A stretch of DNA of 64,000 nt from Leucobacter sp. wl10. GTDB taxonomy: Bacteria > Actinomycetota > Actinomycetes > Actinomycetales > Microbacteriaceae. Below, one piece after another: positions 42,945-61,006 of this stretch. Position numbers and translations under genes: made by a program. The notes below the pieces were generated by a model, which was given only the letters and a program-made list of their open reading frames with translations, did not search any database and had not been told where the DNA came from. How positions within the stretch are numbered: position 1 is the stretch's first letter; each line of letters opens with the position of its first letter. The stretch is taken from contig NZ_KZ983987.1 of NCBI RefSeq assembly GCF_003569785.1, forward strand, positions 124,001 to 188,000. Direction: 5' to 3'.

Positions 42945-42963
42945 TACAATGTGCAATTGTACA
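42945..42963 (-). promoter_or_regulatory. Operator/promoter element of the semialdehyde dehydrogenase gene
   Basis: On the minus strand TGTACAATTGCACAT (42963 to 42949) contains the -10-like TACAAT. It forms part of the perfect palindrome TACAAT-N5-ATTGTA (42945-42961). The same 15 bases precede the Liv importer at 49305. A start near 42949 would give a leader of about 73 nt. Confidence 0.7.
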
Positions 42964-43108
42964 GGGGTTCCGCGCTGCTTGCGACCCTGTTCCGCCAGTC
43001 TTGCAGCTCTGCCCCGAGCGACGTCGGGCATTCCTGAACAGTCGCGCCGCCTCGCCTCGTGCAGATGTGCGCAGTCCCGCTGCAGGCTGTCCGAAGGTGG
43101 CGTGCGCC

Positions 43109-43390
43109 CGAAGATTCCGGGAAAGTAGTAGATATTACTATTTCACGGGCGCCTGAATCTTCGAGAGGAACCGACTGCGGGTCAGGATCGCGATGTTCAG
43201 CATAAGTACCTGATCAAGTGCATATTCAATGATACAGGGACTCCTCCTGATCCCCGCGTGGGCGGCAAGGCGGGTGCGCTGCAGGCCACCCCGTTGACAA
43301 GAATTCAATAAGTTATATTTACAACATTCGAATTCCTTGCTAGCGTATGGCGCACGAACACCTCAGCGACGAAGCTGCGAAAGGCGACTC
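43109..43390 (+). promoter_or_regulatory. AT-rich control region of the AfuABC-like importer
   Basis: The roughly 430 nt between the divergent dehydrogenase and ABC genes hold no gene. Visible elements are an inverted pair CGAAGATTC/GAATCTTCG around 43109-43163, the nested GTAGTA/TACTA near 43125-43140, a consensus -35 TTGACA (43294-43299) and AT-rich TATATT (43314-43319). A second imperfect inverted pair CAAGAATTC/GAATTCCTTG flanks the -10 area. One of these is probably the site of the UTRA-type GntR regulator encoded at the end of the cluster; which one is not known. Confidence 0.5.
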
Positions 43391-44473
43391 ATGACCTCTA
43401 TTCATGTGGATCGGCTGACGATCACATACGGCGATAACACGGTGATCTCAGACATGGACCTCACGGTCCGGGACGGCGAGTTCTTCACCCTGCTCGGCCC
43501 GTCCGGCTGCGGAAAGACCACTCTGCTGCGGACCATCGCGGGCTTCATCGCCCCCGCCTCGGGGCGCATCAGCTTCGGCGACCGCGACGTGACCGACGTG
43601 CCCACGCACCGCCGCAACATCGGCATGATGTTCCAGGACTACGCCCTGTTCCCCGACAAGACGGTGGCCGCGAACGTCGCCTACGGTTTGAAGGCGCGGA
43701 AGACCCCGCGGGCCGAGATCGCGTCGCGCGTAGCCGAGGCGCTCGAACGAGTCGGCATGGAGAGCTTCGCGAGTCGCCACCCGGGGGCGCTGTCGGGCGG
43801 ACAGCGGCAGCGCGTAGCGCTGGCGCGCGCTCTCGTGATCCGGCCCAGCGTACTGCTCATGGACGAACCGCTGTCGGCGCTCGACACGAAGCTGCGGTTG
43901 CAGATCCGGGAGTCGATCATGGATCTGCAGCGTGAGCTGGGGATCACGACGGTGTTCGTCACCCACGATCAGGAGGAGGCCCTGGCGATGTCCGACCGGA
44001 TCGCGCTGTTCCGCGCCGGCGACATCGAGCAGTTGGGGTCGCCGTCGGAGATCTACCGAGTGCCGGTGTCGAGTTACGCCGCGGACTTCATCGGAGCCGC
44101 GAACGTGCTCCGCGTGACGGTGCCGGCGGCGTCGGCCGGAGAGGCGGGCGAGAGCATCACCGTCGCACTCGGCAACACGTCGCTGCGGGGTCTGCGCCGG
44201 ACCGAGCTCGCGGCCGGCGAGGCATTCGTCATCGCTCGCCCCGAGCATCTGCGGCTGCTTCCCGCCGGCGGGATCGTCGGCGAAGGGGTGTCGGCCGTGG
44301 CCGGGGAGGTGGTGCGCCAGCAGTACCTCGGTCATCGCCAGCAGCATCGCGTGCGCCTGGCCGACGGCACGGAGATCGAGACCTCCGAGTCGGCGTCGAG
44401 TCGCGGCTTCGCTGCGGGGGAGCGCGTCGCCGTGCTCTTCCCCGAGCACGAGACGCTGGTGATGGCATCATGA
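43391..44473 (+). CDS. ABC transporter ATPase (AfuC/PotA/FbpC type)
   Basis: A 360-residue ATPase of the CUT1/Fe3+/polyamine importer group. Walker A is FTLLGPSGCGKTTLLRTIAGF, the Q loop is MMFQDYALFPDKTV, the signature is HPGALSGGQRQRVALARAL, Walker B is SVLLMDEPLSALDTKLR and the H loop is VFVTHDQEEALAMSDRI. A TOBE-type C-terminal domain follows (about 250-360). ATG 43391 has GAAAGG upstream and gives the family N terminus. It overlaps the permease gene by ATGA. The substrate class is set by the binding protein, which is of the AfuA/ferric family. Confidence 0.93.
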   Translation: MTSIHVDRLTITYGDNTVISDMDLTVRDGEFFTLLGPSGCGKTTLLRTIAGFIAPASGRISFGDRDVTDVPTHRRNIGMMFQDYALFPDKTVAANVAYGLKARKTPRAEIASRVAEALERVGMESFASRHPGALSGGQRQRVALARALVIRPSVLLMDEPLSALDTKLRLQIRESIMDLQRELGITTVFVTHDQEEALAMSDRIALFRAGDIEQLGSPSEIYRVPVSSYAADFIGAANVLRVTVPAASAGEAGESITVALGNTSLRGLRRTELAAGEAFVIARPEHLRLLPAGGIVGEGVSAVAGEVVRQQYLGHRQQHRVRLADGTEIETSESASSRGFAAGERVAVLFPEHETLVMAS

Positions 44474-46167
44474 GCGTGCAGGCCGGGCCGACCACGCAGG
44501 CCTACCGGATCGCGCAGGAGAAGCATCGGCGCCGGTTCTCGCCGTGGCTCGTGCTCGCCGTGGCGTCGGTCGTGCTGGCGCTGGTGTTCGTGGCGTGGCC
44601 GATCCTGAACGTGCTGCTGAAGTCGTTCTCCGGCGCGACGGGCGACCCGCTCGCGGGGTGGGCCGAGTTCTTCGGCGATCCGCAGTACCCGACCGCGGTC
44701 GGGAACACGCTGCTGCTCGCCGCGATCGTCACGGTGCTCGCGACCGCGATCGGGGTTTTCCTGGCCTACTTCACCTCGCGGTTCGCGTTCTGGGGCAAGG
44801 CCGCGATCGCGGTGCTGCCCGTCACGGCGATCCTGGTGCCGGAGGTGATCGTCACCCAGGCCTGGCTCATGTTCCTCGGCAACAACGGGTTCCTCACCCG
44901 CTTCGTGCGGGACGTCTTCGGCGCCGAGATGCCCACCCTGTACGGCTGGCGCGGCCTGATCCTGATCCTGCCGCTCCTGTACTACACCTACGTGTACCTC
45001 GGCACGCTCGCGGCGCTCAAGAGCTTCGACTCGCAGCTCGAGGAGGCCGCGATGAGCCTCGGCTCGCCGCCCCTGGTGGCGCGGTTGAAGGTCATGATCC
45101 CGGCGATCTTCCCGGCGGTGGCCAGCACCTCCATCGTCGTGTTCACGCTCACCATCGGCAACTTCGCCACTTCGACGATCATCGGCGGCAAGGTGCAGCT
45201 CCTCGCACCCCTCACCTACAAGGCGTTCCTCGCCGAGACCGGCGGCAATCCGGTGATGCAGTCCACCCTCGCCACCGTGGCGATCGCGATCGTCGCACTC
45301 GTGCTGTTCTTCCAGCGCATGACCGTCGGGAGGAAGAAGTACGAGATGGTGCAGGGGCGCTCCTGGACGCCGATCAAGCTGCGCGGGGGTTCGGGCGCAC
45401 TGCTCTCCATCATCGCCGCGGCGATCCTGATCGCCTCGACGCTGCCGCTCGTGATGGTCACGGCGATGGCGTTCACCGCGAGCAGCGGGCCCGTGCTCCG
45501 CTGGGGAGCATTCTCCTTCGACAACATCGCGAAGGTGCTCACGCGCGAGCCGCAGCCGATCCTCAACACCATCGGCTTCGGCGCGATCGCCTGTGCGATC
45601 GGAGTGTTCGTCAGCGTCATCGTGTCGGTCGTGATCGTGAAGAAGAAGAACTTCCTCACGCCCGCGCTCGATTACCTCGTGATGCTGCCCATGGCGCTCT
45701 CGGGCACCGTGCTCGGCATCGGCATGATGACCACTTTCGGCTCCGACAGCCTCATCCCGCTGTCGGGCACGACCTCGATCATCGTGCTCGTGTTCGTGAT
45801 CCGGCGCCTGGTCCACGGCGTCAGGAACGCGTCGGCGACGCTCCACGCGATCCCCGACTCCCTCGAGGACGCGTCGATCAGTCTCGGCGTCCCGCCGTTC
45901 CGGTCCTTCCTCAATGTGGTGCTGCCGCTCATGGTGCCGGGCATCGCCGCGGCGACCGTGCTCACGTGGGTCACCATCATCGGCGAGCTCTCGGCCTCCC
46001 TCGTCGTCTACTCCGCAGGCAAGGAGACGATCACGATCAAGGTGTTCCAGCTCATGAACACCGGTCTCAACGGTCAGGCCGCAGCCTACGGGCTGATCCT
46101 CATCCTGCTCGCGATCGTACCCATCTTCATCGCCACCCGGGTCTTCAGGATCCGGCTCTTCACCTGA
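44470..46167 (+). CDS. ABC transporter fused permease (AfuB/FbpB type)
   Basis: A 565-residue membrane protein with two permease halves of about six segments each. The coupling loops are QLEEAAMSLGSPPLVARLKVMIPAIFPA and SLEDASISLGVPPFRSFLNVVLPLMVPG. Such single-chain double permeases are typical of FbpB/AfuB importers. N-terminal residues 1-30 are cytosolic (MSVQAGPTTQAYRIAQEKHR), followed by WLVLAVASVVLALVFVAWPIL. It starts inside the ATPase stop codon, so the genes are coupled. Confidence 0.92.
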   Translation: MSVQAGPTTQAYRIAQEKHRRRFSPWLVLAVASVVLALVFVAWPILNVLLKSFSGATGDPLAGWAEFFGDPQYPTAVGNTLLLAAIVTVLATAIGVFLAYFTSRFAFWGKAAIAVLPVTAILVPEVIVTQAWLMFLGNNGFLTRFVRDVFGAEMPTLYGWRGLILILPLLYYTYVYLGTLAALKSFDSQLEEAAMSLGSPPLVARLKVMIPAIFPAVASTSIVVFTLTIGNFATSTIIGGKVQLLAPLTYKAFLAETGGNPVMQSTLATVAIAIVALVLFFQRMTVGRKKYEMVQGRSWTPIKLRGGSGALLSIIAAAILIASTLPLVMVTAMAFTASSGPVLRWGAFSFDNIAKVLTREPQPILNTIGFGAIACAIGVFVSVIVSVVIVKKKNFLTPALDYLVMLPMALSGTVLGIGMMTTFGSDSLIPLSGTTSIIVLVFVIRRLVHGVRNASATLHAIPDSLEDASISLGVPPFRSFLNVVLPLMVPGIAAATVLTWVTIIGELSASLVVYSAGKETITIKVFQLMNTGLNGQAAAYGLILILLAIVPIFIATRVFRIRLFT

Positions 46168-46215
46168 TCATCCGTCTCCATTCCGCACCACCATCCATCC
46201 CACACAGGAGTACTC

Positions 46216-47259
46216 ATGCGCACTCGAAGAATCATCAAGATCGGAGCTCTCGCCACGGCGGCGGCGTTCCTTCTGGCCGGCTGCTCGGGCGGCTCCAGCG
46301 GCTCGGGCGGCTCCAGCGGCTCGGGCGGCTCGGGCGGTTCGGGCGGCTCGGGCGGCTCCCTCTCAGCGGTCATGTACAGCTCGAACAACGAGACGACGAT
46401 CGGCGTCGTGACCGACGCCGCGTCGAATCGCGACCCCTCGCTCACCGTCGACGTCGTGACCGGCAGCTCGGGCCCGCTGCTGCAGCGCATCCAATCGGAG
46501 GCCTCGAAGCCCGTCGCGGACGTCTTCTACGGAGCGCCCGCAGCGACGCTCGAGGAGTACGCCGACTACGTCGAGCCGTACCGCTCGCCGGAGGCGGACG
46601 CCATCCCCGATGAGTTCATCGACCCCGAGAACCGCTGGGTGGCGACCAACGTGCACGTCGTCGCCTTCATGGCGAATGTCGACCAGATCGACGGCGGCAA
46701 AGCCCCGACGACGTGGAAGGATCTCACCGCGCCGGAGTGGAAGGGCAAGATCATCGTCGCCGACCCGTCGCAGTCCACGACGGCGCTGACCGCGCTCTAC
46801 GGCGCCTACAAGGTGCTCGGAGAGCAGGATTTCGCGAAGCTGGCGGCGAACCTCGAGGTCACCGAGAACTCGGGCAACGTCTACCCCGCCGTGGCCCAGG
46901 GCGAGTACGCCGTGTCCATCGGCTACGAGTCCAACATCTATCCGTACATCGCGGGAGGACAGGCCGGCGTCGAGATGGTCTACCCCGAGGACGGTACGTT
47001 CGTCGAGCAGGATTCCGTGATGATCGTCAAGGGCGGTCCGAATCCCGACGGCGCTCAGGCGTTGATCGACACCATTCTCGCGAAGAAGACGCAGGAGGAG
47101 AACCTTGCGCAGTCGTTCCGGCGCCCGAGCCGCGACGACATCGATGTCACCCAGTTCGTCGACTTCAAGTCTCTCGAAGAACTCGAGATCGTCGACATCA
47201 AGGGTGACGGGGACGTTCAGGGGCGGAAGGACTTCCTCGCCCTCTGGAAGTCGCTGTAA
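46216..47259 (+). CDS. ABC transporter substrate-binding lipoprotein (AfuA-like) with Gly/Ser linker
   Basis: A 347-residue binding protein with a lipoprotein signal (LATAAAFLLAGCSGG; lipobox LAGC). An unusually regular Gly/Ser run of about 26 residues follows directly, then the family 1/ferric-type binding domain (AVMYSSNNETTIGVVTDAAS, LLQRIQSEASKPVADVFYGA, WKGKIIVADPSQSTTALTALYGAYKVLG, IGYESNIYPYIAGGQAGVEMVYPEDGTF). AGGAG precedes the ATG. The best relatives by pattern are AfuA/FbpA proteins, some of which bind sugar phosphates rather than iron. The conserved double Tyr of iron binders is not obvious, so phosphorylated organic ligands are plausible. Confidence 0.9.
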   Translation: MRTRRIIKIGALATAAAFLLAGCSGGSSGSGGSSGSGGSGGSGGSGGSLSAVMYSSNNETTIGVVTDAASNRDPSLTVDVVTGSSGPLLQRIQSEASKPVADVFYGAPAATLEEYADYVEPYRSPEADAIPDEFIDPENRWVATNVHVVAFMANVDQIDGGKAPTTWKDLTAPEWKGKIIVADPSQSTTALTALYGAYKVLGEQDFAKLAANLEVTENSGNVYPAVAQGEYAVSIGYESNIYPYIAGGQAGVEMVYPEDGTFVEQDSVMIVKGGPNPDGAQALIDTILAKKTQEENLAQSFRRPSRDDIDVTQFVDFKSLEELEIVDIKGDGDVQGRKDFLALWKSL

Positions 47260-47342
47260 CCGACACGAGAGCGAGTGGCGCGGGCGCCGGGCCGTCGAAC
47301 GGGCGCCCCGCCATTCCACCGGCACAGATTGAGAGGCAGAGC

Positions 47343-48131
47343 ATGACATTCGCCGAGCACCCTCAGGTCGAGGAGTTCGTCGCCTTCATCGAGAGACTCG
47401 CCGACGCGGCGCGGGACTTTCTCACGGAGCGGCACGAGGGCAGTCGATTCGAGACCAAGGAGGATCTGAGCCCGGTCACGGAGTTCGATCGCGGTGTCGA
47501 GGCGACTCTGCGGGGCATGATCCGGGATCGGTTTCCAGAGCACGGCATCATCGGCGAGGAGTTTCCACCGGAGCGCGCCGACGCCGAGTTCGTGTGGATC
47601 ATGGACCCCATCGACGGCACCAAATCGTTCGTGGCCGGTCTGCCCGTGTTCACGACGCTCGTGGCGCTCTGCCGGGACGGGGCGCCGGTGCTCGGCGTCA
47701 TCGACGCTTCGGTGCCGCGCGACCGCTGGCTGGGCGTGCAGGGGCGGCGGACGACGTTGAACGGTCGTGAAGTGCGGACGAGCGGTCGCACCGAGCTGAC
47801 CGGTGCGACCCTGAGCTGGAGCCAGCCGGACAGGGTGCTCGAGGTGCACCGCAGCGGCTTCCGGGCCCTGTCCGACCGAGCGGCCTGGAGCGTGTTCGGT
47901 GCGGCTTCCTACGGCTTCGGCCGTGTTGCGGCGGGGGCGATCGACGTCGCGGCCTACAGCGGCAGCATCGGCGCGTACGACGTCTGCGCGCTCGTGCCGA
48001 TCATCGAGGGAGCCGGCGGCGCCATCAGCGACGGCGACGGGAGCCCCATCACGATTCGCCAGCCGCTCGCCTGCGTCGCCGCGGCGAGCCCGGAACTGCA
48101 CGCGAGCGTGGTCGAGACCCTGAACCTGTAG
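47343..48131 (+). CDS. Inositol-monophosphatase-family phosphatase (HisN-like)
   Basis: A 262-residue Mg2+-dependent phosphatase with the family metal sites: GIIGEEFPPERAD (Glu), FVWIMDPIDGTKSFVAGLPVFTTLVAL (Asp, Asp) and SIGAYDVCALVPIIEGAGGAISDGDG (Asp). It would hydrolyse a phosphomonoester such as inositol phosphate, histidinol phosphate or a sugar phosphate in the cytosol. It lies 83 nt after the binding-protein gene and before a GntR regulator, so it probably acts on the compound imported by this ABC system. No other histidine genes are near, so a histidine-pathway role is less likely. Confidence 0.88.
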   Translation: MTFAEHPQVEEFVAFIERLADAARDFLTERHEGSRFETKEDLSPVTEFDRGVEATLRGMIRDRFPEHGIIGEEFPPERADAEFVWIMDPIDGTKSFVAGLPVFTTLVALCRDGAPVLGVIDASVPRDRWLGVQGRRTTLNGREVRTSGRTELTGATLSWSQPDRVLEVHRSGFRALSDRAAWSVFGAASYGFGRVAAGAIDVAAYSGSIGAYDVCALVPIIEGAGGAISDGDGSPITIRQPLACVAAASPELHASVVETLNL

Positions 48132-48272
48132 GCTCCGCGGGAGAGGCCGGTCCCGACCCGGTCGCGGGCCGGCCGGCGACGGGGAGAGGCGCTAGATGTT
48201 CGCTGTTCGGTGGACCCGATCGCATCTGCCGCCCACCGGCGACGTCGGCGCGCAAGTCGGCGACGCGGGCGA

Positions 48273-48278
48273 TAGGGT
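48273..48278 (+). promoter_or_regulatory. Leaderless -10 box of the UTRA-type GntR gene
   Basis: TAGGGT ends 6 nt before the ATG at 48285 with no ribosome site between. The 153 nt back to the phosphatase gene hold nothing else notable. Confidence 0.55.
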
Positions 48279-48284
48279 GGCCGC

Positions 48285-49043
48285 ATGACCTCGCAGCATC
48301 CTTTGTACTCGCGGATCTACACGGTCATGGCCGACCGCATCCGCTCGGGGGAGTGGGTCGAAGGCATGCGGCTGCCGAGCGAGGAGAAGCTGCGGGAGGA
48401 GTTCGAGACCTCTCGCGGACCGGTGCGTCAGGCGCTCGCGCTCCTCAGGTCCGAGGGGCTCATCACCGGTGGTCGAGGCGCTCCTCCGAGGGTGCAGAAG
48501 GCGATCCCCTCGCAGCCGTTCGACACCTACATCTCGTTCACGGAGTGGGCTGAGTCGCTGGGACGGGAGCCGAGCCGCAAGGTGATCGAGATGAGCCACA
48601 AGCTCGCCGACGCCTCGTTGGCGCACTCCCTCGACATACCGGAGGAGAGCCCGGTGGTGACCGTTGTACGCGTCCGCGGCCTCGACGCGGTCCCGGTCAT
48701 GCTCGAGCGCAGCTCCTACATCATGGCAGTCGGTCAGTTCTTGCTCTCGGCCGATCTCGAGGCGAGCAGCATCTACCAGATCTTTCGCGAGCACGGCGTG
48801 TTTCCGACGCGTTCGAGGAATGTCATCGATGCGGTCGCCGCGGATGAGACCGATGCGCGCTGGCTCTCCGTGGCCCAGGGAAGCCCTCTGCTGCGCGTGC
48901 GCCGGGTCACGTTCGACCAGGGGGGAAGGCTCATCGACATCACCGACAACCGATATCTGCCGGAACGCGCCACATTCGTCGTCGAGAACACCACGGCCAC
49001 TCCGAATCCGCTGAACTGGCAGGTGGTCGACGAGGCGGAGTGA
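48285..49043 (+). CDS. GntR-family regulator, HutC/UTRA type
   Basis: A 252-residue regulator with an N-terminal wHTH (YSRIYTVMADRIRSGEWVEGMRLPSEEKLREEFETSRGPVRQALALLRSEGLITGGRGAPPRV) and a C-terminal UTRA ligand domain at about 90-245. The latter has SPVVTVVRVRGLDAVPVMLERSSYI and GSPLLRVRRVTFDQGGRLIDITDNRYLPERATFVVEN. UTRA domains bind small effectors such as sugar phosphates, urocanate or phosphonates. Its location at the end of the AfuABC-like/phosphatase group makes it that group's likely repressor. Confidence 0.92.
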   Translation: MTSQHPLYSRIYTVMADRIRSGEWVEGMRLPSEEKLREEFETSRGPVRQALALLRSEGLITGGRGAPPRVQKAIPSQPFDTYISFTEWAESLGREPSRKVIEMSHKLADASLAHSLDIPEESPVVTVVRVRGLDAVPVMLERSSYIMAVGQFLLSADLEASSIYQIFREHGVFPTRSRNVIDAVAADETDARWLSVAQGSPLLRVRRVTFDQGGRLIDITDNRYLPERATFVVENTTATPNPLNWQVVDEAE

Positions 49044-49387
49044 GGGTCTCGCGTTGTGCGTCGGCCGGCGCGCATGAGCGGTCGCGCGGCTTCCGGGTCG
49101 GGATCGGCGCGTTGCTCGCGGGCGCGGGTCGTCCCCGCGCGCGACGTGCGCCACTGCATCGGCCGGATCGAGGGCTCTTCGCGATGCTGTCGCGGGTGGG
49201 GTCTAGCCTGGGGGAGACGGGGCTGCACGGTCGCCGTCACGTGGCCGGTCACGCTCGCGTAGTCAAATCGTAACCTGCGCGGGACGTCAGAGACACGTGA
49301 AGTATGTACAATTGCACATGGCGCTGGCCTCCGGCGCTCACCTCACCCTTCCATATGATCCGAAGAAGCATCGGGAAAGGACACCTC
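49044..49387 (+). promoter_or_regulatory. Control region of the Liv importer with shared 15-bp operator
   Basis: The 344-nt gap has no gene. TGTACAATTGCACAT at 49305-49319 is identical to the element in front of the semialdehyde dehydrogenase and contains TACAAT (49307-49312), a good -10. Transcription from about 49319 gives a leader of about 69 nt ending in the ribosome site GGAAAGGA. Any repressor bound there would block the promoter directly. Confidence 0.7.
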
Positions 49388-50560
49388 ATGTTCTCCATCC
49401 ACACCTCTCGCGGACGCCGCATCGCGGCGGTCGGCGCGATCGTACTCTCGGCGGGGCTGGCGCTCAGCGGTTGCTCCGGCGGCCTCGCGAGCGGCGGCGG
49501 CAGCGCCTCGACCGACGGCCCCATCAAGCTCGGCATGCTGGCGCCCTTCTCGGGTTCGGAGGCGGCGTTCGGGGAGTACATGCAGAACGGCGCGCAGCTC
49601 GCGATCGACGAGATCAACGCCGACGGCGGCGTGGGCGGCCGCGACCTCGAACTCGTGGTCGAGGACGACGGGTGCGACGCGACCGCGGCGGTCGCGGCCG
49701 CGCAGAAGCTCGTGACCGCTGAGGTCTCCGGCTCGGTCGGCGGCTACTGCTCGGGGGCGACGCTGCCCACGCTGCCCATCTTCGCGGAGGCGGGCGTGCC
49801 GATGGTCATCCCCGCTGCGAATTCGAACGAGCTCGTCGGCCAGGGGGTGTTCATGATCAACGGCACGGGCACGCAGCAGGCGGATGCCGCCGTCGCCTGG
49901 ATTCAGCAGGCCGGTGCTCAGAACATCGTCGTCATCGACGACAATCAGGCCTACCCCAAGGACCTCGCGGATTCGATCCAGAAGCAGGCCAAGGGCATCC
50001 AGGTGGCACGGGAGTCGGTGAATCCGAAGGAGAAGGACTTCTCGGCCAACGTCAACAGCGTGCTCGGCGCGAACCCGGACTTCGTGGTGTGGACGGGCTA
50101 CTATCAGGCCGGCGGGCTGCTGATCAACCAGCTGCGCGGCGCCGGGTACGACGGGCCCATCATGGTGGGCGACGGATCGGTCGACGCGCAGCTCGCAGCC
50201 ATCGCGGGGGACTCCGCGATCAAGAACGTCGTCGGCACCTTCACCCGCACGCCGGACATGCTCGAGAACGGGGACGCCTGGATCGCGGACTACCGGAAGG
50301 TGTCCGGAGGGAAGGACCCCGGCCCGTACTCGATCCAGAGCTACGAGGCGGTCAAGACGATGGCGCAGGCCATGGACGACGCCGGTTCGACCGAGTACGA
50401 CGCGGTGGTGAAGGCGCTGCAGGGGCTCAAGGACTTCCCGCTGCTCACCGGCAATCTCACCTTCGCCGACGACGGGTCGCGCCAGGGCGGCGGCTTCGTG
50501 ATCGTAGAGCCCACCGGTGACAACGGCGCCTTCGTGCTGAAGGACGATCTGCAGGGATAG
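49388..50560 (+). CDS. Branched-chain-amino-acid-type ABC transporter substrate-binding lipoprotein
   Basis: A 390-residue Leu/Ile/Val-binding-family protein with a lipoprotein signal (IAAVGAIVLSAGLALSGCSGG; lipobox LSGC). Its type I periplasmic fold has IKLGMLAPFSGSEAAFGEYMQNGAQLAIDEINADGGVGGRDLELVVEDDG, GGYCSGATLPTLPIFAEAGVPMVIPAANS and DFVVWTGYYQAGGLLINQLRGAGYDGPIMVGDG. ATG 49388 has GGAAAGGA 6 nt upstream. It is the first gene of a five-gene importer operon. The shared operator with the hydroxyproline-pathway dehydrogenase suggests the ligand is hydroxyproline or a related imino acid; this is inferred from context. Confidence 0.93.
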   Translation: MFSIHTSRGRRIAAVGAIVLSAGLALSGCSGGLASGGGSASTDGPIKLGMLAPFSGSEAAFGEYMQNGAQLAIDEINADGGVGGRDLELVVEDDGCDATAAVAAAQKLVTAEVSGSVGGYCSGATLPTLPIFAEAGVPMVIPAANSNELVGQGVFMINGTGTQQADAAVAWIQQAGAQNIVVIDDNQAYPKDLADSIQKQAKGIQVARESVNPKEKDFSANVNSVLGANPDFVVWTGYYQAGGLLINQLRGAGYDGPIMVGDGSVDAQLAAIAGDSAIKNVVGTFTRTPDMLENGDAWIADYRKVSGGKDPGPYSIQSYEAVKTMAQAMDDAGSTEYDAVVKALQGLKDFPLLTGNLTFADDGSRQGGGFVIVEPTGDNGAFVLKDDLQG

Positions 50561-50641
50561 CGCTCTCCGGCGCCGACCGGCCCGAACAGGGCGGTCGGCG
50601 CCGGGCGCATCTCCGCCTCGGATCCTCGGAAAGGCACCCAT

Positions 50642-51535: not shown

Positions 51536-51537
51536 CC

Positions 51538-53480: not shown

Positions 53481-54187
53481 GCACGCTCACACTCGAGAAC
53501 GTCGAGCTCTACTACAACCGGGTGCACGCCCTGCGGAGCCTCAGCATCGAGGTGCGGGAGGGGGAGATCGTCTCGCTGCTCGGCAACAACGGCGCCGGCA
53601 AGACCTCGACGCTGTCGCTCATCTCGGGACTGGTGCGGGCGAAGAGCGGCGCCGTGCACTGGGGAGACCGCGATATCGCGCGCCTCCAGCCCTGGGACAT
53701 CGTCGGCGCGGGGGTGCTGCACATTCCCGAGGGGCGCCGCATCTTCTCCACGATGACGGTGCACGAGAACCTGCTCCTCGGCGGATACCTGGTGAAGGAT
53801 CAGAAGCTCATCGCCGAACGCGCCGCGCAGGCGTACGAGCTCATGCCGCGGCTCGCTGAGCGCCGGGACCAGCAGGGCGGAACCCTGTCCGGGGGCGAGC
53901 AGCAGATGCTCGCGCTCGGGCGGGCGCTCGTGGGCGGCCCCAAGCTGCTGCTGCTCGACGAGCCGTCGATGGGTCTGGCCCCGCTGATCGTGAAGCAGGT
54001 GATGGACATCATCCGCGAGGTCAACCGGCAGGGTGCGACGATCCTGCTGGTCGAGCAGAACGCGCGGGCGGCGCTGAAGATCGCGCACCGCGCCTACGTG
54101 CTCGAATCGGGCCGAGTGACGATGCAGGGCCCGGCCGAGCAGCTGGCCGCCGATCCGCGTGTCATCGAGGCGTACCTGGGGGCCTGA
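53477..54187 (+). CDS. livF: ABC transporter ATPase LivF-type
   Basis: A 236-residue ATPase, the last gene of the importer operon. It has Walker A VSLLGNNGAGKTSTLSLISGL, HIPEGRRIFSTMTVHENLLLGGYL (LivF mark), the signature GTLSGGEQQMLALGRALVGGP, Walker B LLLLDEPSMGLAPLIVKQVM and ILLVEQNARAALKIAHRAYVLESG. Together with LivG it energises the LivHM channel. A strong hairpin follows. Confidence 0.95.
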   Translation: MSTLTLENVELYYNRVHALRSLSIEVREGEIVSLLGNNGAGKTSTLSLISGLVRAKSGAVHWGDRDIARLQPWDIVGAGVLHIPEGRRIFSTMTVHENLLLGGYLVKDQKLIAERAAQAYELMPRLAERRDQQGGTLSGGEQQMLALGRALVGGPKLLLLDEPSMGLAPLIVKQVMDIIREVNRQGATILLVEQNARAALKIAHRAYVLESGRVTMQGPAEQLAADPRVIEAYLGA

Positions 54188-54255: not shown

Positions 54256-55716
54256 CTAGTCGTCGAGGTCGAGCAGCGCCTCGAGCGGCACGGGCTGCGC
54301 GAGCGGGCGCTTGGCGGTCTGCGCGAGCGATTCCGCCCCGGGGGCCGTCGCGTCCTCTCCCGCCGCCAGGCACGAGACCGCGTACCCGCAGACGCGCCCC
54401 TGGCACCACCCCATTCCGGCGCGGGTGACCCCCTTCTGGGTGCGCGCGTCATCGCCGGCCAGCGCCGAGCGGGCGGCGTGGATCTCGCCCGCGCGCACCT
54501 CTTCGCAGCGGCAGGCGATGGTGTCGTCGCGCAGCCGATCGGACCAGCCCCGCGGCACCGGGTGCGCGAGGTGCATCGCCTCGGCGAAGGAGCGCTGCCG
54601 GCGCATCGCCCGCGATTCTCCCGGCGTGGCGCGGGCGGTGCGGCCGAGCGCCTCGGCCGCGGCGACGCGTCCGGCGACCCTGCCCTCGAGCACGGCCAGC
54701 GCCGATCCGCCGACCCCGGTGATCTCGCCCGCGAGCAGCAGGCCCGGAACGGAGGAGCGCTGCTCGGCGTCGGCGACGGCGACGAGGGATCCGTCGACGT
54801 CCTGCCGCGTGGCGGCGCCGAGCTGCACCGGGAGTTCGAGCTGCGGGGTGAAGCCCCAGCCGAGTCCCACGCCGTCGATGCCCTCGATGAGGCGCTCGCT
54901 GCCGGGCGCGATGCCGCCGTCGCCGCGCAGGCGGGCCGTGCGCACGGCCTCGGCCCGGCCGTCGCCGAGGATCTCCGTGATGACGGTGAGCCGCCGGTAG
55001 GGGATGCGGTGCCGCAGGAACGTCCAGGCGTATTCGGCCCCCTCGAGCGCCTTGGCGGGCACCCCGACGGCCCGGTGCGCGCGGGGCAGCCAACCCGTGA
55101 GCGCGGCCGATTCGCAGACCGCGGCCACCTCGCCCCCCGACTGCACGATGTTCGCCGCGACGGGGAGGAGGAACGGGCCGGTGCCCGCGATGACGAAGCG
55201 GCGGCCGGGAAGCATGCCGTTCTGCTTCGTGAAGCCCTGGATGCCGCCGGCGGCCATCACTCCCGGGAGGTCCCAGCCCGGAACCGGGAGCTGGCGATCG
55301 TAGCCCCCGGAGGCGAGCACGAGCCGCGCCGCGCGCAGCTTCGGGATCTCCGACGAGCCGGGTCCGTGCGCCGGGGCGAGGAACAGCGAGAAGCCGGCGG
55401 ACTCGGCGCGCGCCATCCACACCGATGTCGCGGGGAGGAATCGCAGGCGATCGGCGGCGATGCCGGCGTCGAAGGCGCCTCGCAGCTCGAGGTACTCGCC
55501 CCAGCCGTGGTGCAGCGCCCCGTCGTCGACGACCCCGGCCGACTCGGACCGGTGGCGCCAGAACTGGCCTCCCGGCTGCTCGGCGGCATCGATCACGACG
55601 ATGCTCGCTCCCTCGCCCAGCGCGGCCGCTGCCGCGGCGAGACCTGCCGGGCCGGCGCCGACGATGGCGACGTCCCACTCCGGGGCCGGTCCGGTGCGGC
55701 GCGTGTCGTTGCTCAT
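54256..55716 (-). CDS. D-hydroxyproline dehydrogenase-type NAD(P)/FAD oxidoreductase subunit (HcnB/LhpF-like)
   Basis: A 486-residue flavoprotein. The FAD-binding motif is DVAIVGAGPAGLAAAAAALGEGASIVVIDAAEQPGGQFWRH and the second dinucleotide motif is RRFVIAGTGPFLLPVAANIV. VPGLLLAGEITGVGGSALAVLEGRVAG closes the fold. The C terminus carries a BFD-like iron-sulfur segment with Cys pairs IACRCEEV and GMGWCQGRVCG. It matches the largest subunit of three-part imino-acid dehydrogenases that oxidise cis-4-hydroxy-D-proline to the pyrroline. It overlaps the [2Fe-2S] subunit gene by 4 nt and is last in the minus-strand operon. Confidence 0.88.
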   Translation of the reverse strand: MSNDTRRTGPAPEWDVAIVGAGPAGLAAAAAALGEGASIVVIDAAEQPGGQFWRHRSESAGVVDDGALHHGWGEYLELRGAFDAGIAADRLRFLPATSVWMARAESAGFSLFLAPAHGPGSSEIPKLRAARLVLASGGYDRQLPVPGWDLPGVMAAGGIQGFTKQNGMLPGRRFVIAGTGPFLLPVAANIVQSGGEVAAVCESAALTGWLPRAHRAVGVPAKALEGAEYAWTFLRHRIPYRRLTVITEILGDGRAEAVRTARLRGDGGIAPGSERLIEGIDGVGLGWGFTPQLELPVQLGAATRQDVDGSLVAVADAEQRSSVPGLLLAGEITGVGGSALAVLEGRVAGRVAAAEALGRTARATPGESRAMRRQRSFAEAMHLAHPVPRGWSDRLRDDTIACRCEEVRAGEIHAARSALAGDDARTQKGVTRAGMGWCQGRVCGYAVSCLAAGEDATAPGAESLAQTAKRPLAQPVPLEALLDLDD

Positions 55717-56015
55717 GCCTCGCCCTCCATCCGATCCGCGCCGCCGTCGGCGCGGATCTCCATTCCCTCCCGCAGGGGGATCATGCAGGCGCGCTGACCC
55801 GATTCGCCGTCGATCTCCACGATGCAGTCGAAGCAGACGCCGATCCCGCAGAAGAGCCCGCGCGGCGATCCCTCGCGGGTCGTGCGCCAGGCGGAGCGCC
55901 CGGAGGCGGTGAGCGCCGCGGCGACGCTCACCCCGGTCTCCGCCTCCACGGGCTCGCCTTCGAAGCTCGCCCGGATCCGGCGCCCCGTGGGCCGGTACTC
56001 CGATGCCCCGCTCAT
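55713..56015 (-). CDS. [2Fe-2S] ferredoxin-like dehydrogenase subunit (HcnA-like)
   Basis: A 100-residue protein with Cys ligands in LFCGIGVCFDCIVEIDGE and RACMIPLREGMEI, the 2Fe-2S pattern of the small subunit of imino-acid or opine dehydrogenases. It links the two flavin subunits for electron transfer. Both ends overlap neighbouring genes by 4 nt (ATGA), so the three subunits are produced together. Confidence 0.88.
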   Translation of the reverse strand: MSGASEYRPTGRRIRASFEGEPVEAETGVSVAAALTASGRSAWRTTREGSPRGLFCGIGVCFDCIVEIDGESGQRACMIPLREGMEIRADGGADRMEGEA

Positions 56016-57196
56016 GAGGCCCTCCCCTCGAGATGCTCGGCGCCGGGCGCCGCCGCGGCGTCGAAGCGCTCGGGCCGGAAGGGGTGGAGCGCGAGATCCG
56101 GATCCGCGTCGCTCATGGCCTGCGCGAGCAGCTTGCCGGTGCCGGCCGCCAGCCCGATGCCGGCGCCCTCGTGCCCCGCGGCGTGCCACAGCCCGGGCGC
56201 GCGCGGATCGGGGCCGATCACCGGCAGGTGGTCGGGGCAGTACGGGCGGAAGCCGTGATAGTGGCGCAGGATCCGGGTGCGCTCGAGGAAGGGGAAGAGC
56301 GCGACCGCGTTGCGCGCGATGGCGCTCAGCGCCGCCGTGCTGACGGAGCCGTCGAAGCCGACGCGCTCGCGGCTCGAGCCGATGAGGATCGTGCCGGCCG
56401 GGGTGCCCTCCACCACCGGCGAGGCCTGCAGGCCCGCGTCCGAGCTGCCGACGTTGTCGACGTACTCGGCGGCGTAGACCTTGTGATGCACCATGGGAGG
56501 CAGCCGCTCGGTCACCAGCACGAAGCCTCGGCGGGGGAGCACGGGGAGCGCGACGCCGGCGAGCTCCCCGATCCCGCCCGCCCACGTGCCGGTCGCGTTC
56601 ACGATGTGGGCGGCCTGGAAGTCCCCGTTCGGGGTGCGCGCGCCGACCACGCGGTCGCCCCTGCGCAGCAGTTCGACGACCGGTGAGCGCACCATCAGCT
56701 CCGCCCCGCCCTCGCGAGCTAGCCGCAGCAGGTGGGAGGCAGCCAGCACCGGCTGCACCTGGCTGTCCTCCGGATAGTAGGCGGCGCCCAGCGCGCGGTC
56801 GGTGATGTGCGGCTCGTGGGCGCGCAGCTCCGCGGGGTCGAGCCGCTCGGAGCGGATGCCGTACGCGCGCTGAGAGGCCGAGAAGCGATCGAGCGATGCG
56901 AGGCTCGTCTCGCGCGATGCGACGATGATCCCGCCCTTGCGCTCGAACTCCCAGAGGTGCCCGTGCTCGGCGAGCTCGCCCCGCCACAGCCCGAGCGAGT
57001 AGCGGGTGAGTTCGAGCTCCGGCCCCAGTTCCTTGTCCGACACCAGGATGTTGCCCTCGCATCGCGAACTGGTTCCGCAGGCGGGAAGATCGCGCTCGAT
57101 TACGGTGACGGAGAGACCCGCGCGGGTCGCGAAGTAGGCGGTGGCCGCGCCGATGATGCCGGCGCCGATGACGATGATGTCGGAGGTGCGGGTCAT
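56012..57196 (-). CDS. FAD-dependent D-amino/imino-acid dehydrogenase subunit (DAO family, HcnC/LhpB-like)
   Basis: A 394-residue member of the D-amino-acid oxidase family. The N-terminal FAD motif is DIIVIGAGIIGAATAYFATRAGLSVTVIERD. GTSSRCEGNILVSDKE and HIVNATGTWAGGIGELAGVALPVLPRRGFVLVTE follow, and the C-terminal HYHGFRPYCPDHLPVIGPDPRAPGLWHAAGHEGAGIGLAAGTGKLLAQ is the FAD-closing region. This is probably the substrate-oxidising subunit. ATG 57196 begins the Rossmann fold and overlaps the GntR stop by 4 nt. Confidence 0.9.
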   Translation of the reverse strand: MTRTSDIIVIGAGIIGAATAYFATRAGLSVTVIERDLPACGTSSRCEGNILVSDKELGPELELTRYSLGLWRGELAEHGHLWEFERKGGIIVASRETSLASLDRFSASQRAYGIRSERLDPAELRAHEPHITDRALGAAYYPEDSQVQPVLAASHLLRLAREGGAELMVRSPVVELLRRGDRVVGARTPNGDFQAAHIVNATGTWAGGIGELAGVALPVLPRRGFVLVTERLPPMVHHKVYAAEYVDNVGSSDAGLQASPVVEGTPAGTILIGSSRERVGFDGSVSTAALSAIARNAVALFPFLERTRILRHYHGFRPYCPDHLPVIGPDPRAPGLWHAAGHEGAGIGLAAGTGKLLAQAMSDADPDLALHPFRPERFDAAAAPGAEHLEGRAS

Positions 57197-57930
57197 GTTT
57201 CCGTCGGGGGTTCGGTCGGGGATTCGGATTCGGGGCCGGGGCCGCTGCCGCCCGTGGCCCAGATCGAGCGGGCGTGGGAGATGTGCTCGCGCAGCAGCCG
57301 CTCGGCGCCTTCGCCGTCGCCGCTCGCGAGCAGGTCGATCAGCCGATGATGCTCTCGGGCGGAGTCGGCCAGCCGCCCCTCGCGGGCGAGGAGGCCGATG
57401 CCGTACAGGCGCGTGCGCGCGCGCAACGAGGTGGCCAGGTCGACCAGCTGCGGGTTGCCGATGAAGGAGAGCGCGAGGGCGTGGAACTCGCGGTCGTCGC
57501 GGAGGTACTCCTCGAGGTCCTCGCGCTCGGCGGCGCGGAGGCACGCGTCGGCGAGGCGGGTGAGATCGGGGATCGCGGTCTCGGGCAGCTGCCCGGCGAC
57601 GAGGCGGATCGCCGGAGGCTCGAGCAGCAGCCGGATCTGGGCGAGGTCGTCGAGGTCCTTCTCGCTCATGCTCGTGATGCGGAAGCCCTTGTTCTTGATC
57701 GTTTCCACGAGCCCCTCGCGCGCGAGGTCCATCATGGCCTCACGCACGGGCGTCGCCGACACCCCGAGCGCCTGACCGAGCACCGGGGCCGAGACGACCT
57801 CGCCCTCCTTCAGCCGGCCGATCACGATGGCGGTGCGCAGCTGCTCGAGCACGGTCTCGCGCAGGTTCAGCGGCCGGGCGAGCGGGGTGAGCTGCGAGTC
57901 GGACTCGTGGGCAGAAGCGGGGGTTGGCAT
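57193..57930 (-). CDS. GntR-family regulator, FadR/FCD type (hydroxyproline operon)
   Basis: A 245-residue regulator. The wHTH at about 20-85 (LRETVLEQLRTAIVIGRLKEGEVVSAPVLGQALGVSATPVREAMMDLAREGLVETIKNKGFRI) is followed by an FCD helical domain (about 95-225). Metal/ligand-site residues are visible in DDREFHALAL, GLLAREGRLADSAREHHRLIDLLASGD and REHISHARSIW. GAGGAG precedes the ATG, 9 nt after the reductase gene. Being inside the hydroxyproline operon, it is the best candidate to bind the TGT...ACA elements at 42950, 49305 and 60993. This is inferred. Confidence 0.9.
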   Translation of the reverse strand: MPTPASAHESDSQLTPLARPLNLRETVLEQLRTAIVIGRLKEGEVVSAPVLGQALGVSATPVREAMMDLAREGLVETIKNKGFRITSMSEKDLDDLAQIRLLLEPPAIRLVAGQLPETAIPDLTRLADACLRAAEREDLEEYLRDDREFHALALSFIGNPQLVDLATSLRARTRLYGIGLLAREGRLADSAREHHRLIDLLASGDGEGAERLLREHISHARSIWATGGSGPGPESESPTEPPTET

Positions 57931-57939: not shown

Positions 57940-58908
57940 TCATCGGCTGGCGTCTCGCCGACCCTCAGCGAAGATCACAGCCGCGCAGATCAAATCCTCC
58001 CACGACATGCCGACGCCGGTGTACAGCGCGGGGCGGTCGGCCCGGCGTGTCACGCCCCGGGAGACGAGCTCGCCGATGTTCACCGGCGCAGTCCCCGCCT
58101 CCCAGTCCTGCGGCAGGAGCGCAGTGGCCAGGTTGCCGTTCTCGCGCCGCGCCGAGGCGCGTCCCTCGACGACGAGGTCGGAGCGCCGCACCAGGCGGTC
58201 GTCGACCTCTCGCAGCGCGCGACCGTGCGTGCCGACGGCGGCGACGATCGCGCCGTCGCGCACGAGCGAACCGTCGAAGAGCGGGGATCCGGCGCTGGTC
58301 GCGCAGATGACGATGTCGGCCTCGTGCACCGCGGCGTCCGGATCGCCGCTGCGATCGCGCGGTTCGAGCTCGGGGAAGCGGGCGATGAGCGCCGCGACGT
58401 TCTCGGGGCTGCGCCCGACGATGCCGAAGTCGGCGTCGGGGAAGTCCACGAGCGTCGCCTCGATGTGCCCCGCCGCCTGGACGCCCGCGCCGAAGACCAG
58501 GACCCTGGGCCGCGCGGGGAGCTGCGCGCCGGGGGAGGCGGAGCGCGCGAGGTGGCGCACGGCGGTCAGCGTCACCGCGGGGGTGCGGATCGCGGTGAGA
58601 CTCGCGCCCTCCATCACGGCGACGGGGGCGAGCGTCTCCGAGGAGTACAGGATGTAGAGCCCCTGGATCTTCGCGAGGCCCCTCGCGGGGTTCTGGGGGG
58701 CCACCGTGAGCGCCTTGAGCCCGCTGAACTCGGCTCCCTGCGCCGGCATCAGCAGGAACTCGCCCTCGGGGGCCGGGCTGAACAGCCGCGGCCCATCCTC
58801 CTCCGGGTCCACTCCGCCGCGCAGGCCCTCCTCGATGGCGCGCATGGCGCGCGCGTACGGAAGCGCGGCGCGCACCGCATCCGCGTCGAAGTAGGGGAGC
58901 GCGTTCAC
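57940..58908 (-). CDS. Ornithine cyclodeaminase/mu-crystallin-family reductase (probable pyrroline-2-carboxylate reductase)
   Basis: A 322-residue protein of the OCD/mu-crystallin family. Marks are LMPAQGAEFSGLKALTVAPQNPARGL, GASLTAIRTPAVTLTAVRHLAR and the NAD(P) motif RVLVFGAGVQAAGHIEATLVDFP, then DIVICATSAGSPLFDGSLVRDGAIVAAVGTH. Family members in hydroxyproline clusters (LhpI) reduce delta-1-pyrroline-2-carboxylate to L-proline, the step after dehydration of 3-hydroxyprolines; true ornithine cyclodeaminase is the alternative. The GTG start overlaps the epimerase stop (GTGA). An enolase-superfamily gene at the right edge could supply the pyrroline. Confidence 0.82.
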   Translation of the reverse strand: MNALPYFDADAVRAALPYARAMRAIEEGLRGGVDPEEDGPRLFSPAPEGEFLLMPAQGAEFSGLKALTVAPQNPARGLAKIQGLYILYSSETLAPVAVMEGASLTAIRTPAVTLTAVRHLARSASPGAQLPARPRVLVFGAGVQAAGHIEATLVDFPDADFGIVGRSPENVAALIARFPELEPRDRSGDPDAAVHEADIVICATSAGSPLFDGSLVRDGAIVAAVGTHGRALREVDDRLVRRSDLVVEGRASARRENGNLATALLPQDWEAGTAPVNIGELVSRGVTRRADRPALYTGVGMSWEDLICAAVIFAEGRRDASR

Positions 58909-59912
58909 AGCAGGAACCCCCTCGGGAAGGGATCCGTTGGATCGAGGAAGTACTGGGCGGTGCCGGTGATCCAGGCGCGTCCCATGACGGTGGGGATGAC
59001 CGCGGACCGGCCCGCGATCTCCGTCTGCTCGATCAGGCGGCCGGTGAAGCGCGATCCGATGTACGACTCGTTGATGAAGTCGGTGCCGAGAGCCAGTTCG
59101 CCGCGAGCGTGCAGCTGGGCCATCCGGGCGCTCGTGCCGGTGCCGCAGGGGGAGCGGTCGAACCAGCCGGGGTGGATCGCCATGGCGTGCCGTGAGTGCT
59201 CGGCCGTGGAGCCGGGGGCCTGCAGGTACACGTGGTGGCATCCGCGGATGTCCGGGCGCTCGGGGTGCACCGGCTCGTCCGCGGTGTTGATCGCGTCCAT
59301 GATGGAGAGCGCCGCACGCAGCAGCTCGTCCTGATTCGAGCGGTCCTCCCGCCACTCGATTCCCAGCCGTTCGAGCTCGACGATGGCGTAGAAGTTGCCT
59401 CCGAAGGCCAGATCATAGTCCACCGCGCCGATTCCGGGCACATCGATGCGCGCGCCGAGGCGCTCCGAGAAGGAGGGAACATTGGTGATGGTGACACTCT
59501 CGGCGCGCCCGTCGTTCACCGCGACCTCGGCGACGACGAGACCGGCCGGAGTATCGAGCCGGATCGTGGTCACCGGCTCGGTCACCGCGACCATGCCCGT
59601 CTCGACGAGCACCGTCGCGACCCCGATCGTGCCGTGCCCGCACATGGGGAGGCAGCCCGAGACCTCGATGTAGAGCACGCCCCAGTCCGCATCCGGACGC
59701 GTGGGCGGCTGGAGGATCGCGCCGCTCATGGCGGCGTGGCCGCGCGGCTCGAACATGAGCAGCTGCCGCAGCTCGTCGCTGTGCTCCATGAACCAGGTGC
59801 GGCGCTCGGCCATGGTGTCGCCGGGCATCACGCCGACGCCGCCGGTGATGACCCGTGTGGGCATGCCCTCGGTGTGGGAGTCGACGGCGTGGAAGACGCG
59901 GCTGGTGCGCAT
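58905..59912 (-). CDS. Proline racemase-family 4-hydroxyproline 2-epimerase
   Basis: A 335-residue proline-racemase-family enzyme. Both catalytic Cys residues are present: SGCLPMCGHGTIGVATVLVE and FDRSPCGTGTSARMAQLHA. Trans-3-hydroxy-L-proline dehydratases of the same family carry Thr at the second position, so an epimerase/racemase is favoured. The N terminus RVFHAVDSHTEGMPTRVITGGV and INESYIGSRFTGRL are also typical. It would interconvert trans-4-hydroxy-L-proline and cis-4-hydroxy-D-proline, the first step of the pathway (LhpA). GAGGAA precedes the ATG. A hairpin lies 63 nt upstream. Confidence 0.9.
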   Translation of the reverse strand: MRTSRVFHAVDSHTEGMPTRVITGGVGVMPGDTMAERRTWFMEHSDELRQLLMFEPRGHAAMSGAILQPPTRPDADWGVLYIEVSGCLPMCGHGTIGVATVLVETGMVAVTEPVTTIRLDTPAGLVVAEVAVNDGRAESVTITNVPSFSERLGARIDVPGIGAVDYDLAFGGNFYAIVELERLGIEWREDRSNQDELLRAALSIMDAINTADEPVHPERPDIRGCHHVYLQAPGSTAEHSRHAMAIHPGWFDRSPCGTGTSARMAQLHARGELALGTDFINESYIGSRFTGRLIEQTEIAGRSAVIPTVMGRAWITGTAQYFLDPTDPFPRGFLL

Positions 59913-60010: not shown

Positions 60011-60026
60011 TGCTTCGGCTCCGACC

Positions 60027-60932
60027 CTACCTGTCGTAGCCCTTCGCGGCCGCGGCCCGCGTGTCGGCGACGATGCGCTCGGCGACCTCGGACGCGAGGG
60101 GCAGGCGCGGCGGGCGGCAGGCGCCGCCCTTGCGGCCGAGCACGTCCATCGAGAGCTTGATGGCCTCGACGAACTCGGTCTTCGAGTCCCAGCGCAGCAG
60201 CGAGTGCAGGTCGCGGTAGATCTGCTGGCCGCGCTCGAGGTCGGCGTAGTCGCCCGAGGTGCAGAGACGGTAGAGCTCGATGCAGGACTGAGGGATCGCG
60301 TTGGGGTAGCCCGACACCCAGCCGACCGCGCCCGCGAGGCCGACCTCGAGCACGGTGTCGTCGGTGCCGATCAGGATGTCGATGTCGGGTGCGAGCTCCT
60401 TGATCTCGTATATGCGACGGGGGTCGCCGGAGAACTCCTTGACGCCGACCATGTTGCCGGCCGCGTGGATCTCGGCGATGAGGTCGGGCACGAGGTCGAC
60501 CTTGGTGTCGATCGGGTTGTTGTAGCCGATGATCGGCAGGCCGACGCTGCCCACGGTGGCGTAGTGGTGCTTCACCTGCTCGCGATTCGCGCGGTAGGTG
60601 TTCGGCGGCAGCAGCATGACGCACTGCGCGCCGGCCTCGGCGGCCTGCTCGGCCCAGTGGGCCGACTGGAGCGCCCCGTAGGCGCCCACGCCGGCCATCA
60701 CGGTGAAGCCCTCGGGGGAGGCCTCCACCGCGGTCTTCACGACCTGCGCGCGCTCGGCCTCGCTGAGGTTCTGGTACTCGCCGAGCGAGCCGTTGGGGGC
60801 GACGCCGTCGCAGCCGTTCTCCGCGAGCCAGGCCACGTGCTCGCCGAAGGCGTCGAAGTCGACGGACAGGTCGTCGTTGAAGGGCAGAGCGGTCGCTACG
60901 ATGACGCCGTGCCAGGGCTGCTTCTCGGTCAT
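60027..60932 (-). CDS. DHDPS-family pyrroline-4-hydroxy-2-carboxylate deaminase (probable)
   Basis: A 301-residue dihydrodipicolinate-synthase/N-acetylneuraminate-lyase-family protein. Schiff-base Lys is in MVGVKEFSGDPRRIYEI, the Tyr in LPIIGYNNPIDTKVDLVPDL and the N-terminal GVAPNGSLGEYQNLSEAERAQVV replaces the usual GTTGE motif. In this operon the fitting role is conversion of 1-pyrroline-4-hydroxy-2-carboxylate to 2-oxoglutarate semialdehyde plus ammonia (LhpC). It is the first gene of the minus-strand operon, with GAAAGGATCC-type ribosome bases just upstream of the ATG. Confidence 0.87.
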   Translation of the reverse strand: MTEKQPWHGVIVATALPFNDDLSVDFDAFGEHVAWLAENGCDGVAPNGSLGEYQNLSEAERAQVVKTAVEASPEGFTVMAGVGAYGALQSAHWAEQAAEAGAQCVMLLPPNTYRANREQVKHHYATVGSVGLPIIGYNNPIDTKVDLVPDLIAEIHAAGNMVGVKEFSGDPRRIYEIKELAPDIDILIGTDDTVLEVGLAGAVGWVSGYPNAIPQSCIELYRLCTSGDYADLERGQQIYRDLHSLLRWDSKTEFVEAIKLSMDVLGRKGGACRPPRLPLASEVAERIVADTRAAAAKGYDR

Positions 60933-60984
60933 GGGCGGGATCCTTTCGTGGGTGGTCTCGGCGCCGTTGTCCGGGCCTGCGCGT

Positions 60985-61006
60985 CAATAATGTGTGACAT
61001 TGCACA
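60985..61006 (-). promoter_or_regulatory. Operator-like element before the hydroxyproline operon
   Basis: TGTGACATTGCACA (60993-61006) matches the shared element TGTACAATTGCACA at 11 of 14 positions and keeps the TGTG...CACA ends. AT-rich CATTAT (minus strand, 60990 to 60985) next to it could be the -10. It lies about 60 nt upstream of the deaminase gene. Confidence 0.6.

Follow-up and report, generated by a model that had tools for sequence, protein, structure and literature searches.

Hydroxyproline is a building block of collagen. The closest described relative of the system treated here is the hydroxyproline regulon of Streptomyces coelicolor, in which HypR (SCO6294) recognizes the operator TRCMATGTCAC (Kotowska et al. 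2019, PMC6608401). According to that paper, its sites lie at the −10 element (hypR) or adjoin the transcription start site (SCO6289), TGCAATGTCAC was bound by HypR in an electrophoretic mobility shift assay (EMSA; Table 1 of the paper), and TACAATGTCAC is the published footprint sequence. It also reports that one of three fragments carrying a single mismatch to the operator bound HypR and two did not, that TGCCATGTCAC sites were bound in EMSA without an in vivo effect on the tested promoters, and that the effect of HypR on the promoter of the 2-oxoglutarate semialdehyde dehydrogenase (KGSADH) gene was left untested. Here, a putative HypR-type regulon is described in a 64,000-nt stretch of the Leucobacter sp. 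wl10 genome (assembly GCF_003569785.1, contig NZ_KZ983987.1, positions 124,001–188,000), hereafter the window. Leucobacter are soil- and nematode-associated actinobacteria. In the window, sites of HypR type stand before a hydroxyproline (hyp) operon, a Liv-type importer and a proposed KGSADH gene. The regulator FCD1 (57193–57930), a GntR-type protein encoded inside the operon, is very probably the HypR of Leucobacter and would repress uptake together with every step to 2-oxoglutarate through these shared sites. An earlier note on this DNA had proposed one regulon under the FCD-type GntR inside the operon, and this remains the best-supported reading on the grounds of site rarity, conservation and the match to the published operator.

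Exact copies of TGTACAATTGCACAT, a 15-mer with a candidate −10 element (TACAAT), form putative operators at 42949–42963 on the minus strand before KGSADH and at 49305–49319 on the plus strand before the Liv importer. Both copies, the TACAAT in each and their near-equal distance from the start codon had been described before and were recovered here, with gaps of 72 nt to the KGSADH ATG at 42876 and 68 nt to the LivJ ATG at 49388. At up to three mismatches, TGTACAATTGCACAT had four matches in the window, namely these two sites on both strands; 100 dinucleotide shuffles of the window gave a mean of 0.05 matches and a maximum of 1. The third putative operator, TGTGCAATGTCACA, lies on the minus strand at 60993–61006, 60 nt before the hypD ATG at 60932. 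It contains exactly TGCAATGTCAC (60994–61004), fitting TGC(A/C)ATGTCAC, and differs from TGTRCAATTGYACA by two mismatches on either strand. The earlier note had presented this 14-mer as a relative of the 15-mer core with 11 of 14 matches, a count that holds in its register. The hypD site is not the weaker one, being the best anchored of the three, and the ranking is reversed: on sequence grounds, the hypD site is the canonical HypR-type operator and the 15-mer a putative variant of it. All three sites of the original set are real; a fourth candidate, ATTGCCATGTCACA, which contains TGCCATGTCAC, had been overlooked at 61892–61905 (plus strand), between the genes of a second GntR-FCD regulator, FCD2, and a major facilitator superfamily (MFS) transporter.

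Genome-wide counts refer to the 3.81-Mb assembly of 64 contigs, in which the 15-mer occurs twice, before KGSADH and the Liv importer. Scanning with TGTRCAATTGYACA at up to three mismatches returned 38 places: 2 perfect (the KGSADH and liv sites), 32 at the three-mismatch level, and 4 at two mismatches, which are the hypD site and three sequences centred on CATATG (contigs C13 and C26). The three-mismatch level was dropped as noise, as 38 places compare with 30 for the reversed-pattern control. The many hits at unrelated genes that had been considered a threat to the proposal did not appear: the unified motif TGTRCMATNNYACA has three perfect places, all at hyp genes, and two with one mismatch, against one or two for its reversed control, although this test is partly circular because the motif was generalised partly from the tested sites. 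Less circular is TRCMATGTCACA, which combines the published HypR site list with one A from the hypD site and owes nothing to the 15-mer. It gave four places at up to one mismatch (three in the reversed control), of which the two perfect ones are hypD and 61894–61905, within the fourth candidate, and the others, with one mismatch, are C1:192852 and C4:136779. A weak further candidate, TGTACCACTTTACA (one mismatch), was found at C4:229256, 21 nt upstream of a DAO-family oxidoreductase open reading frame (ORF), and another hit, C2:261457, falls within an ORF. The CATATG-centred palindromes on C13 and C26 may, as a guess, belong to another regulator. Two tandem TGTACATATGTACA palindromes were also observed in the window's own genome at C26:14652–14679, perhaps as operators of another regulator.

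Upstream of hypD, TGTGCAATGTCACA is conserved exactly in 20 of the 28 loci of relatives. These are all 20 loci of the Leucobacter/Brevibacterium group, which comprises Leucobacter, two metagenome-assembled genomes (MAGs) labelled Brevibacterium and one unclassified MAG; none of the eight distant loci has it, and some of them carry related but different sequences instead. The exact site also precedes hypD in genomes G014 and G047, and another perfect-scoring site lies further upstream in loci L063 and L067. As a separate observation, a second proline-racemase-family gene (34% identical) stands beside the hyp operon of G047 (C1:2771149, locus L051) with its own exact TGTGCAATGTCACA, and several other Leucobacter have racemase-family genes of 33–35% identity near hypD.

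Where a genome has several KGSADH copies, the one beside livJ or hyp genes, or else the best match, was treated as hyp-associated and all other copies as controls; this labelling was done with the sites already known. A site within one mismatch of TGTRCMATNNYACA was present within 220 nt upstream in 16 of 16 hyp-associated copies and in none of 12 controls (Fisher's test, p = 3e-8, indicative only, given related species, post-hoc labels and a pattern partly derived from tested sites). Mononucleotide shuffles reached this level in 11 of 2800 cases. The controls were five copies from G253, G096, G208 and G323, which have no hypD match at E ≤ 1e-60, and seven second copies in hyp-bearing genomes. 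If only the best-matching copy per genome is counted, the figure is 15 of 16; G407, tested later, was positive, bringing the hyp-associated copies of relatives to 17 of 17. G376 has two copies of equal identity (77%), and the site is found at the copy adjacent to livJ. The comparison left out G402 and the first copy of G415 (in both, the N-terminus is truncated by the match or the contig end), the third copy of G253 (partial) and G411 (no KGSADH match), together with the distant or other-genus genomes G003, G328, G403, G404, G409, G410, G416 and G417, whose copies are 44–70% identical. In this distant or other-genus set, a search of the upstream 600 nt allowing two mismatches gave one-mismatch sites in G416 (−264 and −167) and a two-mismatch site before the second copy of G417 (−188).

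The two classes of site differ at their centre and mostly at position 4, which is G in 20 of 20 hypD sites and A in 14 of 18 KGSADH sites. Such a difference could mean two regulators, FCD1 at the hypD operator and another protein at the KGSADH/livJ 15-mer. However, KGSADH sites of relatives bridge the classes: those of L. komagatae and Leucobacter sp. G161 contain TACAATGTCAC and read TGTACAATGTCACA as a whole, which is the hypD type except at position 4, the site of G407 is TGTGCAATGTCACA itself, and L. celer and L. zeae have the intermediate TGTACAATGGCACA; TGCAATGTCAC occurs exactly at KGSADH in G406 and G407. In addition, the KGSADH site is missing in the four genomes without a hypD match. 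Mainly because of the bridging sites, both types are assigned to one protein, and a division of labour between two proteins appears quite unlikely.

The LivJ gene was preceded by a site within two mismatches in all 18 copies shown, the window included (7 perfect, 6 with one and 5 with two mismatches). A first-order Markov background of window composition gave 141 such matches in 2 Mb, which corresponds to roughly 0.02 per 250 nt. These rows do not include G401, whose N-terminus is missing, or G409 (Microbacterium), which has a two-mismatch site at −52. A single shared site accounts for both the KGSADH and the LivJ row in Leucobacter sp. L43 (G376) and in L. coleopterorum (G418) and was counted once per list. 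Read in gene direction, 17 of the 18 LivJ sites have A at position 4, giving TANNAT, and the sites might be taken for plain promoter elements (TACAAT −10) kept for RNA polymerase rather than for a regulator. This is highly improbable: the conserved stretch spans 14 bases, the conserved sites include hypD, where the candidate −10 has a different register, and the site is missing from the 12 control KGSADH promoters. The candidate hypD promoter, TTGCGA-17-TACCTT (61006–61034, minus strand), was read from the sequence and was not listed by the consensus promoter scan; its last −10 base is the first operator base. The operator thus appears to enclose the −10 element at KGSADH and liv, where the −35 elements look poor, and to overlap the −10 end and start region at hypD, and either placement suits repression. 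A likeness of the embedded −10 to the Streptomyces hypR promoter was dropped as proof; at the Streptomyces loci L086 and L087, TACAATGTCAC is on the strand opposite to hypR.

A regulator of the expected type accompanies the sites. Both the window and 18 of the 20 group loci have an FCD-type GntR gene (PF00392 and PF07729) among the hyp genes or immediately behind them; in these 18, FCD1 follows hypD with 65–93% identity, and in L074 and L083 the contig ends first. The FCD proteins encoded beside the Streptomyces hyp operons in L086 and L087, used as stand-ins for SCO6294, are 46–47% identical to FCD1, have TACAATGTCAC upstream and share its recognition segment SATPVREAM. The conserved Asp and His residues of the FCD protein are presumably metal-binding. 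The genome has 31 FCD-domain matches, and a protein search with FCD1 returned FCD1 itself and FCD2 at E ≤ 1e-30 (among the 6 of 47 first-look candidates that were scored). FCD2 (61090–61809, minus strand), directly upstream of hypD, is the regulator gene nearest the hypD site. It shares 40% identity with FCD1, L. komagatae has its ortholog in the corresponding position (L079), and in the tree it groups with the two Streptomyces FCD rows, which do not join FCD1 (97/92, midpoint root; possibly a long-branch join). Nevertheless, FCD2 is very unlikely to be the protein that binds the shared sites, as it occurs at 1 of the 28 hypD loci of relatives compared with 20 of 28 for the site (orthologs elsewhere in those genomes were not searched) and its recognition segment reads SNGPVREAM. 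As a side observation, FCD1-like paralogs (75–77% identical) lie beside agmatine-deiminase-family genes in G376 (L046:9800–10495), where a PutA-like gene follows, and in G253 (L049:9725–10423), where a 2-oxoglutarate-dehydrogenase-like gene precedes.

With FCD1 as HypR, the proposed mechanism is as follows. A dimer of FCD1 would bind the TGTRCMATNNYACA-type sites at the hypD, KGSADH and livJ promoters, and possibly also the FCD2/MFS intergenic region, and would repress transcription by masking the −10 element or the start site. Repression would be lifted by hydroxyproline or a product of its metabolism, so that uptake and every step to 2-oxoglutarate would rise together. Control of hypR would be autoregulatory, because the gene lies inside the hypD–E–reductase–hypR–dehydrogenase operon.

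Apart from the grouping of FCD2 in the tree, several results weigh against this model. The KGSADH and livJ sites of the window read TACAATTGCAC, with two central mismatches to the published 11-mer, and 5 of the 17 LivJ sites of relatives have two mismatches. The FCD1-like paralogs in G376 and G253 have the same recognition segment, and only three-mismatch sites were found near them. In G418, a site precedes the partial copy next to livJ (80% identical) but not the best KGSADH match (85%, far from livJ), which was counted as a control. No KGSADH site was found in the Brevibacterium MAGs, other distant hyp-bearing genera mostly lack it, and apart from the G416 and G417 sites given above, the copies of the distant or other-genus set gave none within the upstream 600 nt when two mismatches were allowed, which speaks against a general rule. 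Site loss in the distant copies fits a motif that may have drifted outside the Leucobacter group. Furthermore, the relatives do not constitute independent cases, and part of the sites had already been seen when the pattern was generalised. The fourth candidate site adds two further points: 1 of 25 genomes yielded an MFS ortholog at E ≤ 1e-120, which leaves the site at 61892 without ortholog support, and it is located upstream of the MFS promoter-like sequence. Function of this site is possible, with the balance tilted against it.

A more elaborate, two-tier version of the FCD1 model was also considered. In it, the operator comes in two classes matched to the position of the promoter, TGTGCAATGTCACA at hypD, which overlaps the −10 end, and TGTACAATNNYACA at KGSADH and liv, which encloses the −10. 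Control of FCD2 and the MFS gene through the site at 61892 is added, so that a single repressor would govern two importers as well as the entire pathway and would relay the signal to another FCD protein. We consider this version doubtful and rated it lower because the TGCCATGTCAC sites of S. coelicolor bound HypR without an in vivo effect.

The earlier note had spoken of three separated loci. They are separate in the window, but this is probably a matter of rearrangement, as three relatives, L. edaphi (G158), Leucobacter sp. L43 and L. coleopterorum, have KGSADH and livJ side by side in divergent orientation. L. edaphi has one site per gene (−80 and −84); in the other two, a single site is common to both genes. 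The window and L. zeae have the same transport cluster between KGSADH and livJ and a separate site at each gene, L. zeae with about 2.4 kb extra beside the cluster. The two genes of L. chromiireducens are separated by about 5.7 kb that does not contain this cluster. KGSADH of L. celer has a site of its own and lies behind the dehydrogenase genes instead. The likeliest history, judged from gene order, is a single neighbourhood that was split later. Since the two 15-mers are identical and inverted on both sides of the cluster at 43337–49043, they could also be the inverted ends of a mobile insertion that brought the transport cluster, and no operators at all. That reading is barely conceivable and largely contradicted: L. 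edaphi lacks the insert yet has a site near each gene, and in L. zeae, where the cluster is also present, the flanking sites have different sequences. A HypR-like site, TGTACCATTGCACA, was observed in L. coleopterorum at L090:569–582 before the transport cluster that splits KGSADH and livJ in the window, and several hyp, liv and KGSADH genes of this species (L090:9998–16633, L160) give matches split into at least two parts, a pattern reminiscent of gene decay.

Enzyme names in the window follow Pfam families, likeness to S. coelicolor SCO6289–6293 and context; the NCBIfam matches shown were all below their cut-offs. The operon runs on the minus strand from hypD (60027–60932) through the epimerase, reductase and FCD1 genes to the three dehydrogenase subunits, ending at 54256. 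HypD is a DHDPS-family protein (PF00701), by family and neighbourhood a probable pyrroline-4-hydroxy-2-carboxylate deaminase like SCO6292, and its nearest named match is a protein of L. celer subsp. astrifaciens (96% identical). HypE (58905–59912), of the proline racemase family (PF05544, E = 1.1e-131; NF010578, 363.9 bits against a cut-off of 376), is a probable 4-hydroxyproline epimerase, and the ornithine-cyclodeaminase-family protein (57940–58908; PF02423, NF004793 below cut-off) a probable pyrroline-2-carboxylate reductase. FCD1, the proposed HypR, combines a GntR winged helix-turn-helix with the FCD domain, as judged by Pfam, alignment and tree. The probable D-hydroxyproline dehydrogenase consists of an FAD/DAO-type subunit (56012–57190; ThiO/SoxB-like matches below cut-off, SCO6289-like by family and neighbourhood), a 2Fe-2S subunit (55713–56012; PF13510 at the end of a longer ORF, resembling SCO6290, with no NCBIfam match) and a nucleotide-binding subunit (54256–55716; PF07992, soxA-like below cut-off, resembling SCO6291).

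The five genes of the LivJHMGF-type ABC importer (49388–54187, plus strand; Pfam matches) are transcribed towards the hyp operon. KGSADH (41359–42876, minus strand), transcribed away from it, encodes an aldehyde dehydrogenase (PF00171) for which none of the NCBIfam models shown reaches its cut-off; 2-oxoglutarate semialdehyde is the substrate suggested by context. The intervening cluster (43337–49043, plus strand) comprises an ABC transporter with phosphonate/polyamine-type matches below cut-off, an inositol-monophosphatase family gene and a UTRA GntR gene; L. zeae has this set of genes at the corresponding position, and the cluster is not counted within the putative regulon. Beyond FCD2, the MFS metabolite/H+ symporter gene (61978–63306, plus strand; TIGR00883 below cut-off) is a candidate second hydroxyproline-linked transporter, and in Leucobacter sp. 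PH1c (L075) its ortholog and hypD are immediate, divergently oriented neighbours.

The literature searched, judged by titles and abstract openings, yielded no account of this regulon in Leucobacter. The window offers a testable and apparently complete hydroxyproline regulon for the genus, from import to 2-oxoglutarate. It extends the HypR operator beyond Streptomyces, to the very dehydrogenase whose control was not addressed there. A substrate is also suggested for a Liv-type importer, for which it could not be named from sequence families alone. The regulator type, the pathway and the operator are already known from Streptomyces; inclusion of KGSADH and the Liv importer is an extension rather than a new kind of system.

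Compared with other described systems, P. aeruginosa LhpR likewise controls this pathway, with a three-subunit dehydrogenase, but is an AraC-family activator, and the three-subunit enzyme and S. meliloti HypO are not homologues, as stated in PMC6608401. HypR of S. meliloti and other Proteobacteria is also a GntR/FadR-type regulator of hydroxyproline catabolism, and its predicted regulon core includes the same genes, hypE, hypD and hypH (PMC5343134 and PMC4494728). Its operators have GT and AC 2 nt apart (PMC4494728), a spacing absent from the Leucobacter sites. The S. coelicolor regulon, as described in PMC6608401, also includes collagenase and 2-oxoglutarate decarboxylase genes. It shares with the Leucobacter system an FCD/FadR-type GntR gene beside the set of three-subunit dehydrogenase, deaminase and epimerase. 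The Leucobacter system differs in that hypR lies inside the operon and that KGSADH and the Liv importer bear sites, with a more symmetrical centre.

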